Shown: piece by piece, positions 7,705 to 10,722 of the stretch | Layout of the letters: each line of letters starts with the position of its first letter | How positions within the stretch are numbered: the stretch's first letter is position 1 | NCBI RefSeq assembly: GCF_026126405.1 | Contig: NZ_JAFMTQ010000016.1 | Location: 1 to 62,521 of the forward strand | Length of the DNA: 62,521 nucleotides | Reading direction: 5' to 3' | DNA from: Aureitalea sp. L0-47 | GTDB taxonomy: Bacteria; Bacteroidota; Bacteroidia; Flavobacteriales; Flavobacteriaceae | Made by a program: the position numbers and the translations under genes | Notes under the pieces: model-generated | Seen by the model: only the letters and a program-made list of their open reading frames with translations | Databases searched by the model: none | Told to the model about the DNA's origin: nothing

Positions 7705-8994
7705 TTATATTTTTCTGGTTTGATTGATTTGTTCCATCTCATCGGCAATCCTTCGTAAGAATGATCCCGCTAAATATCCGTCTACTATTCGATGATCGAA
7801 GGACAATGACAGGTACATCATCTGCCTTATCTCTATTTTATCTCCGTCCTCGTGCTCCATCACTTCCGCCCTTTTCTTTATAATACCTGTCGCGAGTATG
7901 GCCGCTTCAGGCTGATTGATGATGGGCGTTCCCATCAAACTTCCGAAGGTTCCAACATTGCTTATCGTAAACGAGCTTCCGCTGGTATCATCCGCCGCCA
8001 GTTTTCCTTCCCTCGCCTTCATAGCTAGCTCATTGGTCTTGGCAGCCAGTTCCTGAAGGTTTAGCTTATCGGCATCCCTCACAACAGGAACGATAAGATT
8101 ACCAGAAGGTAGAGCTGTTGCCATCCCAATATTGATATGCTCCTTCACTATGATGTTCTTTCCATCCAGTGATGAATTGATCATTGGGAATGCCTTTATT
8201 GCTTTTGCTATGCATTCGATGAACAGTGGTGTATACGTTAGTTTCTGATTGTATTTCTTCTGAAAATCCGCCTTAACCTTATTACGCCAGTTTACCATTT
8301 CAGTGAGATCGGCCTCAACGTAGGCCGTGACATGTGGAGAGGTATGTTTACTGAAGACCATGTGGTCCGCGATCATCTGCCGCATTCGGTCCATTTCCAC
8401 GATCTTCCCTTCTCCTTTATCAAATTGCAGGTCGGGCACCTTAAATCCGGTACTTTCTGTAACGGGTTGAGCGAATTTGAAGGGCCTGCCATCGTCTATG
8501 TAGTTCATCACATCGCTCTTCCGCAACCTTCTGTCTTTTCCAGTTCCCGGAATACGAGCTAATTCTTCGTAGCTGATATGGTGTTCCCTGGCAATACTAT
8601 CTACAAGCGGACTCACAAATAGGTCCTCATTCACCTGGAAGGATGCCGCCTGAACCGATTTCTTCTTTCTTTTTGTTTCTGAAGTTGACTTAGGAGCTTC
8701 CTTTTTGGAAGGTTTTGATTTTCTAGTTTCCGAAGGAATCACAGGCAGTTCGCCATTGGTTTCAATTATCGCGATCACCGAACCAATATCAACCACGTCA
8801 TTCGGCTCGTATAAAAGTTCAACGATCTCTCCAGATACGGTAGAAGGCACTTCAGAATCCACCTTATCAGTAGCCACTTCGAGCAAAATTTCGTCAAATT
8901 CAATAGTATCCCCTACACCTTTGAACCATTTAATAATGGCGGCTTGCGTAATACTCTCGCCCATCCTGGGCATTTTAAATTCAAACTGACTCAT
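7705..8994 (-). CDS. 2-oxoacid dehydrogenase E2 (dihydrolipoamide acyltransferase)
   Basis: 429 residues in the standard E2 order: a lipoyl domain (residues 1-78, lipoylated Lys in EVATDKVDSEVP), a Pro/Lys/Ser-rich linker, a peripheral subunit-binding domain (FVSPLVDSIAREHHISYEEL), a second linker and the catalytic acyltransferase domain ending in DHRIVDGYLAGSFL with the catalytic His and Asp. It transfers acyl groups from E1 to CoA and forms the core of the complex. Its ATG overlaps the paaY stop by one base (TGATG). Together with the downstream aminotransferase and fused E1 it forms a branched-chain catabolism module at the end of the phenylacetate operon. Confidence 0.9.
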   Translation of the reverse strand: MSQFEFKMPRMGESITQAAIIKWFKGVGDTIEFDEILLEVATDKVDSEVPSTVSGEIVELLYEPNDVVDIGSVIAIIETNGELPVIPSETRKSKPSKKEAPKSTSETKRKKKSVQAASFQVNEDLFVSPLVDSIAREHHISYEELARIPGTGKDRRLRKSDVMNYIDDGRPFKFAQPVTESTGFKVPDLQFDKGEGKIVEMDRMRQMIADHMVFSKHTSPHVTAYVEADLTEMVNWRNKVKADFQKKYNQKLTYTPLFIECIAKAIKAFPMINSSLDGKNIIVKEHINIGMATALPSGNLIVPVVRDADKLNLQELAAKTNELAMKAREGKLAADDTSGSSFTISNVGTFGSLMGTPIINQPEAAILATGIIKKRAEVMEHEDGDKIEIRQMMYLSLSFDHRIVDGYLAGSFLRRIADEMEQINQTRKI

Positions 8995-9593
8995 CAGCTT
9001 CTTTTAAACTCTTTCAACGTTTTATAAAAATCTTCTTGTTCGGGTCTCTCTTGGGGAATTTCCCTAAGCGGTTCAACCTCCCATAAACTGTCGTGACAGT
9101 CTTTAGGCAACTGCTGATACAATCGTGTACCTGCCGTTTTCCATGCTATCATTTCTTCCGAAACTTCCTTGATCGCTTTAGCGGGATTACCTACTATTAA
9201 TTGTCTTTTTTCAAACTTCGACTCCGCCTTTACAAAGCTCATGGCGCCAACGATACACTCATCGCCAATTTCAGAATCATCCATAATCACCGAGTTCATC
9301 CCGATAAGGCAATTTCGCCCGAGGTTCGCTCCGTGTATAACCGCTCCGTGCCCTACATGAGCACCTTCTTTCAGCACAATGCTTTTCCCCGGAAACATGT
9401 GTACCGTACAATTCTCCTGCACATTCACACCGTCTTCCAGGATGATCTCACCCCAGTCGCCTCTTATGGCAGCTCCGGGACCTATATAACAGTCTTTTCC
9501 AATGATCACATTCCCGGTGACCGCAGCAAGCGGGTGCACGAAACTGGATTCGTGGATTACTGGTATATGTCTTTTAAAACTGTATATCATCAC
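8994..9593 (-). CDS. paaY: PaaY-like hexapeptide-repeat thioesterase
   Basis: 199 residues. Left-handed beta-helix hexapeptide repeats fill residues ~12-150 (GNVIIGKDCYIGPGAAIRGD, VGHGAVIHG, VGAMSFVKAE), with the histidines expected for the gamma-carbonic-anhydrase-like metal site. The C-terminal tail (AWKTAGTRLYQ..., WEVEPLREI) is characteristic of PaaY rather than plain carbonic anhydrase homologues. PaaY is a thioesterase thought to clear dead-end CoA adducts in phenylacetate degradation. Two in-frame ATGs (9593 and 9590) are possible. The gene begins directly beside the GIY-YIG gene's last codon, and without that insert it would adjoin paaF. Confidence 0.88.
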   Translation of the reverse strand: MMIYSFKRHIPVIHESSFVHPLAAVTGNVIIGKDCYIGPGAAIRGDWGEIILEDGVNVQENCTVHMFPGKSIVLKEGAHVGHGAVIHGANLGRNCLIGMNSVIMDDSEIGDECIVGAMSFVKAESKFEKRQLIVGNPAKAIKEVSEEMIAWKTAGTRLYQQLPKDCHDSLWEVEPLREIPQERPEQEDFYKTLKEFKRS

Positions 9594-9935
9594 TTATTCC
9601 TGCGTAGGCAGGAATCTTTTTGTTTTTAATACTGAATTTTCAATTTGATGCCAATTCAGGGCAATATCCATCCAACCTGGATTCATTTCTTCTATAAGCC
9701 TAACTTTCCACTCACGCTTCCACTTTTTCATACGCTTCTCTCTCAATGCCGCTTCAGATCCTGAATCAAATTCCTCAAAACAAACCAGCTTATCACAATT
9801 GTATCTAGCACTGAACGCATTTTTGAAAACCTTTAATTTATGTTCCCAAACTCGGGATTCGAGATCATCCGTGACGCCAGTATAAATAACACCATTCTGT
9901 TTATTCGTCATTATATACACATACCAGTTATTCAT
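9594..9935 (-). CDS. Single-domain GIY-YIG nuclease-family protein
   Basis: 113 residues. The GIY-YIG core opens the protein (WYVYIMTNKQNGVIYTGVTD, followed by the helix with Arg and His in SRVWEHK), then REKRMKKWKREWKVRLIEE as in the small YhbQ/UPF0213-like group. The conserved Tyr, Arg and Glu positions look intact, so nuclease activity is possible but unproven. The gene sits in the middle of an otherwise uninterrupted catabolic operon, between the paaF stop and the paaY start. It is bracketed by two 20-bp palindromes with identical arms; the one at its 3' end encodes its final residues (FLPTQE). It is unrelated to phenylacetate metabolism and looks like a mobile passenger. Confidence 0.88.
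   Translation of the reverse strand: MNNWYVYIMTNKQNGVIYTGVTDDLESRVWEHKLKVFKNAFSARYNCDKLVCFEEFDSGSEAALREKRMKKWKREWKVRLIEEMNPGWMDIALNWHQIENSVLKTKRFLPTQE
9596..9615. repeat. Palindrome at the 3' end of the GIY-YIG gene
   Basis: A perfect inverted repeat: ATTCCTGC (9596-9603) and GCAGGAAT (9608-9615) around the tetraloop GTAG. It overlaps the last codons of the GIY-YIG gene. Both arms are identical to those of the second copy at 9951-9970. Confidence 0.9.
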
Positions 9936-9950
9936 CTCTAATCCAATGAG

Positions 9951-9970
9951 ATTCCTGCCTTCGCAGGAAT
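9951..9970. repeat. Palindrome upstream of the GIY-YIG gene
   Basis: A perfect inverted repeat with the same arms, ATTCCTGC (9951-9958) and GCAGGAAT (9963-9970), around the different tetraloop CTTC. It touches the paaF stop codon (TAA, 9972-9970). Two matching hairpins bracketing one gene suggest a REP-like unit. Confidence 0.9.
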
Positions 9971-10722
9971 TATTTAAAACGCTTCAATGTCTCTTTAGTA
10001 AACTCAGAAAGCACTAATCTCCCGCTAATTGCAGCTCTTTCTGCCAACAATTCATCCCAGTTCTCAGTGCCTTGCCAGAATACTTTCTTCATCTCCCGCA
10101 TGGCTTCGGGGTTGTAACCGCAAAGTTGTTCAGCGAAAGCGCGAACTGCTTCATCTAATTCTTCGGTAGAATCAAAAACTTTTGCAAACAAGCCTTTCTG
10201 CCGGGCCCATTCCGCGTCGTAAAAAGCATTGGCGTCTATGGCGATCTGAGACATTCCGCTCAATCCAAGTTTACGTTCTACGGCCGGACCTACTACAAAT
10301 GGGCCAATACCCACATTCAACTCGCTCAATTTAATCGAAGCATATTTTGTTGCCATGCAAAAGTCGGTAGCCGAAGCCACACCAACTCCTCCTCCAACTG
10401 TCTTTCCCTGTATGCGCCCGATGATGAATTTCGGACACTTACGCATAGAATTGATCACATTTGCAAATCCACTGAAAAAGACCTTACCTGTCTCCGCATC
10501 TTCGATATTGATCAATTCCTTGAAGCTGGCTCCTGCACAAAAGGTGCGGTCACCGCCACTTTTCAGAATAATTACTTTTACATCATCGTTCTCCCCTGCC
10601 TCGGTAATAGTTGCCGCAAGCTTGGCCAGGATATCTCCCGGAAGACTGTTATGCGCAGGATGAAAAAACTCAATGGTTGCGATTCCGCTGCCTATATGTT
10701 CTTTGACGTAGGGTGCTGTCAT
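9970..10722 (-). CDS. paaF: Enoyl-CoA hydratase/isomerase family, PaaF-like
   Basis: 250 residues with the crotonase fold: an oxyanion-hole segment (TFCAGASFKEL, residues ~61-71) and the second loop (GKTVGGGVGVASATDF, ~105-120). By position it should hydrate 2,3-dehydroadipyl-CoA late in phenylacetate catabolism, because the better PaaG candidate lies at 16013-16795. The region where hydratases carry the second catalytic Glu reads LNVGIGPFVVGPAVERKLG and deviates from the usual pattern, so the exact reaction is less certain than the family. It lies 10 bp after paaZ. Confidence 0.78.
   Translation of the reverse strand: MTAPYVKEHIGSGIATIEFFHPAHNSLPGDILAKLAATITEAGENDDVKVIILKSGGDRTFCAGASFKELINIEDAETGKVFFSGFANVINSMRKCPKFIIGRIQGKTVGGGVGVASATDFCMATKYASIKLSELNVGIGPFVVGPAVERKLGLSGMSQIAIDANAFYDAEWARQKGLFAKVFDSTEELDEAVRAFAEQLCGYNPEAMREMKKVFWQGTENWDELLAERAAISGRLVLSEFTKETLKRFK

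Follow-up and report, generated by a model that had tools for sequence, protein, structure and literature searches.

What is a small nuclease gene doing between two copies of one palindrome, in the middle of a tightly packed operon? The question is raised by a contig of Aureitalea sp. L0-47 (Flavobacteriaceae; NZ_JAFMTQ010000016.1), the whole 62,521-nucleotide stretch of which was analysed and is called the window here. An earlier note, made from the letters of the window, had read the arrangement as a unit resembling REPs that brings its own nuclease, a GIY-YIG enzyme taking the role of mobilising protein. The flanks of related genes, the pairing of protein with stem, additional copies of the hairpin and host junctions free of the insert uphold the unit; the mobilising role stays a prediction from sequence. 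In our judgement it is probable that positions 9596-9970 form a 375-bp cassette (REP, GIY-YIG gene, inverted REP) gained between the paaF- and paaY-like genes, that its predicted nuclease targets its own hairpin, and that nuclease and REP coevolve.

The cassette lies in a minus-strand operon whose genes encode, in order, a 3-hydroxyacyl-CoA dehydrogenase, a thioesterase, a thiolase, an aldehyde dehydrogenase/MaoC fusion (paaZ-like), the paaF-like hydratase, the paaY-like protein and a 2-oxoacid dehydrogenase E2 (the labels paaF, paaY and paaZ are those of the earlier note or our own, and the searches give protein families only). The GIY-YIG reading frame is transcribed in the direction of the operon. 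All other junctions between 7705 and 16013 overlap or leave a gap of at most 10 bp, confirming that the gene sits between paaF and paaY in a tight operon; the further statement that it lies exactly between the paaF stop and the paaY start is right as to position and inexact as to spacing, 34 bp separating the stop from the ATG. The features are collected in Table 1.

Table 1. The cassette and the host genes on either side of it, in window positions.
Feature	Position	Strand	Description and evidence
paaY-like hexapeptide-repeat gene, downstream host gene	8994-9593	minus	Hexapep E 3e-20 and relatives; start GTG 9593 or ATG 9590
GIY-YIG nuclease gene	9594-9935	minus	single, 113 aa; 3' codons overlap the downstream hairpin; list of open reading frames and PF01541
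Downstream hairpin REP	9596-9615		8-bp stem, 4-nt loop; tail CTTT on the side of the gene
Upstream hairpin REP	9951-9970		inverted copy of the downstream hairpin; tail CTCA on the side of the gene
paaF-like enoyl-CoA hydratase gene, upstream host gene	9970-10722	minus	ECH_1 E 5.6e-33 and relatives

The bracketed frame matches PF01541 (GIY-YIG) with an E-value of 4e-17 over residues 3-77, and a domain search of the gene returned no domain other than this one. Residues Y7, Y18, G20, R28, K70, K77 and N85 are invariant in both alignments (the structure alignment keeping 31 rows of the 39 first tried) and E66 is invariant or nearly so; Y7, Y18, R28, N85 and E66 we take to be the catalytic positions. 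The AlphaFold model has a mean pLDDT of 85, with residues 98-113 predicted to be disordered, the last of them encoded by the hairpin itself. The best Foldseek matches, all weak, were UPF0213 (E 1.5e-3) followed by Slx1 and the UvrC nuclease domain, and the nearest solved sequences are again UPF0213 proteins (PDB 1zg2 and 1ywl; best sequence E 0.012, also weak). What these weak matches to UPF0213 and Slx1 have in common with the window protein is the GIY-YIG fold; Slx1 is larger and acts on branched DNA.

Both palindromes are present as first described, with matching arms and differing tetraloops: the downstream hairpin reads ATTCCTGC-GTAG-GCAGGAAT and the upstream one ATTCCTGC-CTTC-GCAGGAAT. 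That one overlaps the last codons of the gene and the other touches the paaF stop was borne out, the downstream hairpin lying within the final codons of the reading frame and sharing one base with its stop, and the outermost base of the upstream hairpin being the final base of the paaF stop. The hairpins are inverted copies, with 27-nt arms complementary at 24 of 27 positions (89%), hairpin-side tail included. A common orientation turns the loops into GTAG and GAAG, which differ at one base, so the loop difference, which had been offered as a sign of selection on the stem, is weak evidence for it. As single-stranded DNA the two 20-mers have fold energies of -7.5 and -7.1 kcal/mol, with z about -6. 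A scan of the 62.5-kb window allowing up to three mismatches found these two palindromes alone, both perfect; shuffled windows gave a mean of 0.33 such loose matches and at least two in 6 of 100 shuffles. By eye, AATAA is seen at both cassette edges, where it overlaps the stem in AT-rich sequence. Neither a clear target-site duplication nor a rule of insertion was found.

Beyond the window, the host genome (3.38 Mb in 67 contigs) contains five exact copies of the palindrome, two of them the window pair, along with two copies at one mismatch and three at two mismatches; the reversed pattern occurs nowhere in the same genome. The window stem is thus a small dispersed family. Six GIY-YIG matches are present in this genome, and none of them has beside it any of the five further copies (three exact, two with one mismatch). 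The additional copies for which the earlier note had proposed to search do exist, and the clustering beside GIY-YIG genes about which it had asked is not seen among them. Two of the five (L005:1501-1520 and L006:1501-1520) end 3 bp ahead of a tRNA gene, tRNA-Arg at 1524 of L005 and tRNA-Gly at 1524 of L006, the latter hairpin lying between two tRNA genes; a third copy (L001) has the tmRNA gene at a distance of about 250 bp.

The history of the junction was traced through relatives of paaY (E<=1e-60), which 28 of 59 genomes possess, counting that of the window; paaF was also present at 19 of these loci, at one of them (L055) only in part. Among the 19, the window alone has a GIY-YIG gene between paaF and paaY. 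In all six congeners searched, paaF and paaY either overlap or leave a spacer of 6 to 23 bp with no cassette, and in the sister species G001 (support 100/99 in a tree of paaF and paaY DNA) the junction is a TAATG overlap. Because the cassette is missing from all six, sister species included, it was probably gained on the window's own branch. The earlier note had asked whether orthologous junctions lack the insert, and those of 6/6 congeners do; neither a gene and palindromes fixed everywhere without mobility nor a palindrome placed at random with respect to GIY-YIG genes, the outcomes against which the earlier note had set its reading, occurred as stated. Elsewhere the paaF-paaY junction holds a 23S_rRNA_IVP gene (G033 and G016) or other sequence (G018 and G030). 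The 23S_rRNA_IVP genes (PF05635; L051:2147-2584 in G033, L056:2142-2513 in G016) have inverted repeats of 17-26 nt, of another kind. At the paaZ-paaF junction, four other genera (L021, L024, L033, L102) have a GIY-YIG gene with other stems, 43-57% identical to the window's. The sequence CCAGGAAT, which precedes paaY in the congeners G003, G005 and G006 and resembles the outer stem arm, may be a half-site, but the sister G001 has no such spacer.

Flanking repeats were then compared across related genes. Matches with E<=0.001 occur in 52 of 99 genomes (the window's own included), up to eight per genome, and since some contain stops, decayed copies exist. From these relatives, with weaker rows left out, 30 + 60 loci were taken together with 2 others, giving 92; L130, L133, L148 and L149 had no tblastn match, leaving 88 scored loci, 86 of which entered the count of GTC-headed hairpins. 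A strict twin-hairpin test was passed by 12/34 close, 2/22 middle and 2/32 distant genes and by 0/1,760 dinucleotide shuffles. When left and right flanks of the 88 loci were ranked against one another, a test blunted by repeats common to several loci, inverted similarity fell in the top 5% for 19/34, 8/22 and 4/32 of the same groups and direct similarity for 18/34, 8/22 and 13/32. Outward GTC hairpins were present on both sides of 10, and on one side of 6, of the 86 Flavobacteriales loci (window genome included). Weak GIY-YIG genes proved unusable as a negative control, many having other repeats in their flanks, and paaY loci were substituted. Among the matches listed, five distant UPF0213-like genes of the window's order (L136, L141, L142, L144, L145) have flank repeats such as TGTCAGGCTGAGCG.AGTCGAAGCC and GTCAGTTCGAGTGATCCGCC, and other distant GIY-YIG genes stand beside tRNA genes (L138, tRNA-Val at 1313 and 1578; L154 and L155, tRNA-Asp).

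A scan of named genomes took the survey into many phyla, using the best 80 of at least 536 relatives. The left flank was compared with the reverse complement of the right at a cut-off of p<=0.01, and among these best 80 of at least 536, 62 loci had inverted flank similarity, as against 0/27 paaY control loci, whose flanks are mostly coding. Direct similarity was seen at 36/80 (controls again 0/27) and similarity in either orientation at 69/80. In the same best 80, a GTC-headed hairpin pointing outward was found on both sides of 47 and on at least one side of 67 (controls 0/27), more often than in the 86 loci of the window's order and genome, and an inward GTC head on both sides of 8 and one side of 15, 23 in all. 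The 47 both-sided loci have 13 phylum labels, many of them from metagenome bins whose labels may be wrong. Two relatives lie on viral contigs. Twelve loci of a second order were also scored, apart from L242, and inverted flanks rose above mononucleotide shuffles in 7/11; they did not in L240, L244, L245 and L247, and L239 is the same gene as L211. The upstream neighbour is on the same strand in 68/72 cassettes (8 of the best 80 of at least 536 had no reading frame on one side), a bias that we gave little weight as a cassette trait, the window's ordinary genes showing it in 44/56 (Fisher p 0.013). Judged by their sequences, related cassettes with other stems are present in many phyla, and most of the REPs in them look like members of the CGTC superfamily.

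Stem class and protein vary together in these cassettes. For the pairing analysis and the protein tree, 83 of 168 loci were used (no internal stop, more than 70 aa), their stems classed by a hand-made rule. The nearest protein had the same stem class in 49/65 cases on the N side (shuffles: mean 12.8, maximum 24) and 55/75 on the C side (mean 15.0, maximum 29), figures to be read with the within-phylum statistic inflated by co-inheritance at one locus. The closest protein from another phylum shared the stem in 25/64 cases against 16.2 in within-phylum shuffles, and in 26/73 against 17.5 (p 0.002 each). In the tree, which has few columns and many open forks, a supported clade (97*) joins ATTGCGGG-type proteins of three Bacteroidota with one from a bin labelled Helicobacter, and the window and L018 form another clade (95*), separate from the main CCTGC group. 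The ATTGCGGG stem also turns up in L211 and L225, outside its main clade, and there are cassettes in which the two stems differ. From sequence comparison, then, stem type follows the protein, across phyla too, in a pairing that is not one to one.

The same correspondence was seen in the palindromes of whole genomes. Own-stem counts, copies beside the gene included, were made for 38 of the 80 genomes (the best 80 of at least 536). Genomes with a CCTGC-type gene had more ATTCCTGC than ATTCCCGC palindromes in 14/14 cases (medians 11.5 and 0), and those with a CCCGC-type gene had more ATTCCCGC than ATTCCTGC in 13/14 (medians 6.5 and 0), the remaining one being 0/0; in G099 all five copies lie within 1 kb of one another. 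For the 10 genomes with other stems the T/C counts were 1/2, 0/2, 0/0, 0/0, 0/0, 5/7, 0/3, 18/7, 0/2 and 0/0. Among the 99 relatives, with the copies flanking the gene subtracted, the 7 genomes with a ATTCCTGC-flanked gene have 1-28 further copies, and any ATTCCTGC copies were found in 16 of the 92 others, with a maximum of 4 (p 2e-8 for the contrast). Across 300 genomes of one proteobacterial order, the ATTCCCGC palindrome was found in 31/50 with the gene and 45/250 without it (odds ratio 7.4, p 1.2e-9), an association that is strong and not strict, 19 of the 50 gene carriers having no palindrome. Conversely, some palindrome-rich genomes (91, 72 and 47 copies) had no match to such a gene. A search for PF01541 in 12 of the palindrome-rich genomes with no match gave six small proteins besides long open frames, which resemble UvrC in length alone. 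The small proteins inspected, all but L263 (L252, L253, L254, L256 and L258), had no inverted flanks. Loss of the partner would explain palindrome-rich genomes that have no gene.

Among the matches listed, Winogradskyella cassettes that are 85-87% identical (L181/L185, L185/L187, L187/L217) have, within 1.5 kb, neighbours of entirely different families; neighbour families are shared by two pairs at 85% identity (L181/L187, L185/L217). Similar cassettes at differing loci, alongside others that share neighbours, suggest that cassettes move slowly, on the scale of a genus. Some sites are common to several genera among the matches listed, so cassettes can also stay put for long. By eye, and again among the matches listed, seven loci with three stem types (L103, L109, L115, L123, L161, L162, L189) have trpB/trpA-like neighbours, a second recurrent operon besides paa, and a dUTPase-like neighbour is common to L018, L019 and L126, a set that takes in the closest relatives.

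How might such a cassette spread? GIY-YIG enzymes hydrolyse DNA, and we know of none that joins strands. The pairing of such a nuclease with a hairpin exposed in single-stranded DNA points to the extruded REP as the probable site of cutting. Most likely, the nuclease would cut the hairpin when the DNA is single-stranded, as on the lagging strand, in transformation or in repair; repair from a sister or incoming copy could then give new copies, host recombination or repair placing copies of solo REPs, or now and then of an entire cassette, at intergenic positions. We give close to an even chance to the broader proposal that CGTC REPs across bacteria have their missing autonomous partners in small GIY-YIG nucleases, every one of which would recognise its own REP hairpin, cassette and solo REPs forming a mobile class that would work by single-strand cutting and host repair with no transposase. 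GIY-YIG genes are often bracketed by CGTC-type REPs, stem and protein co-varying, which makes their product a candidate enzyme for those REPs, and the question can be tested with short oligonucleotides. If the proposal is true, it would account for where many short repeats of Bacteroidota and Proteobacteria come from, and a large set of site-specific nucleases, ready matched to their targets, would be at hand.

A reading to which we assign a sizeable probability, somewhat under one half, accepts the enzyme-repeat pair as real and denies that it is a mobile element: the nuclease would cut incoming single-stranded DNA at the repeats and so tune natural transformation, gene and repeats alike spreading solely by ordinary transfer and homologous recombination. 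Enzyme class and kind of repeat are reportedly those of Ssn in Neisseria, and the patchy distribution with relatives in many phyla would be expected. This account fits less well with the arrival of the cassette at a junction where the sister species has no room between the genes, with other cassettes in the neighbouring junction of the same operon, and with similar cassettes at differing loci within a genus among the matches listed.

It is improbable that the hairpins are RNA-level elements, serving in processing, mRNA stability, termination or as a ribosome site, that flank a small gene by chance. They do lie in a tightly packed operon, and by eye AGGA occurs in the outer arm of the downstream hairpin, ahead of the paaY start, where a ribosome site would be expected. 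No Rfam family reached threshold, however, and a gene-specific pairing of stem with protein across phyla would not be expected of RNA signals. In the scan of 9400-10200 no family came near threshold, and Francisella FtrB, which needs 66 bits and scored 24.5 and 21.6 at the two hairpins, was attributed to chance.

A homing endonuclease, spreading through cleavage of alleles that lack the insert, is a reading we think slightly less probable still. It would account for the GIY-YIG domain, for insert-free junctions in relatives and for a weak match to group I intron endonucleases (19 bits where the cut-off is 56). What speaks against it is that the protein is a single short domain of 113 aa with a disordered C-terminus (98-113) and no separate DNA-binding region, that the position is intergenic and the sites are many and unrelated, and that both hairpins are intact after insertion; were the hairpin the target, an allele holding the insert would go on being cut. 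That the gene is an ancient operon member lost elsewhere is most improbable, since despite its orientation and the GIY-YIG genes in the paaZ-paaF junction of four genera, it is absent at paaF-paaY in the 18 other loci, sister species included, and the paaZ-paaF genes are 43-57% identical to it and differ in stem.

The preferred reading, a REP cassette with its own nuclease, has counterparts among known systems. CGTC-tagged REPs are described, in the available part of the source, as repeats that "apparently lack a dedicated transposase", with a stem of 8-9 bp starting AT, a loop of 4-5 nt, an unpaired CGTC, TGTC or CCTC tag at one end and a CCA tail, often in inverted pairs and found in five phyla, Bacteroidetes included; no transposase gene is reported there as associated with them (Di Nocera 2013, PMC3733652). 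Against that partial description, the window stem ATTCCTGC with its 4-nt loops fits the form of stem and loop and likewise belongs to a dispersed family, whereas the window copies are few and have neither the CGTC/TGTC tag nor the CCA tail; many relatives of the window cassette do carry repeats of CGTC form. The outer bases of the window hairpins are CTT and ATA, with no GTC head at either, and the five further genomic copies have none; for this reason the window hairpins are taken, on their sequence, as a derived form of CGTC-type REP. Literature searches returned no paper, among the matches listed, that ties GIY-YIG enzymes to REPs, and a word search of the main text of the 2025 RepRanger paper found neither "GIY" nor "nuclease".

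In the RAYT/REP and REPIN systems of Proteobacteria, the RAYTs are HUH tyrosine transposases and the REPs are GTAG-tagged. The layout is the one seen here, a gene for a DNA-processing enzyme between inverted hairpins with solo copies elsewhere, but the enzyme there is an HUH transposase and here a GIY-YIG nuclease, and the tag differs. The closest parallel may be Ssn, reportedly a GIY-YIG family of wide distribution that is site-specific for single strands and cleaves them at the NTS repeat in Neisseria (Veyrier group, 2025, Nature Communications); the same study is said to show that the nuclease modulates transformation and that many homologues have their own repeats. Like the window protein, Ssn is reportedly a small stand-alone GIY-YIG protein with the conserved residues and a multi-copy repeat, and by analogy we regard it as an enzyme-repeat pair of this kind. 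The evidence gathered here differs: a cassette layout, a junction that in relatives lacks the insert, pairing across phyla, and a window hairpin, ATTCCTGC, that has no GTC head. Di Nocera's identification of the Neisseria CGTC-1 repeat with dRS3, in the part of that paper available to us (PMC3733652), fits the comparison with Ssn and also counts for the reading as a tuner of transformation. The link from GIY-YIG nucleases to CGTC REPs, and the cassette evidence for it, may be new.
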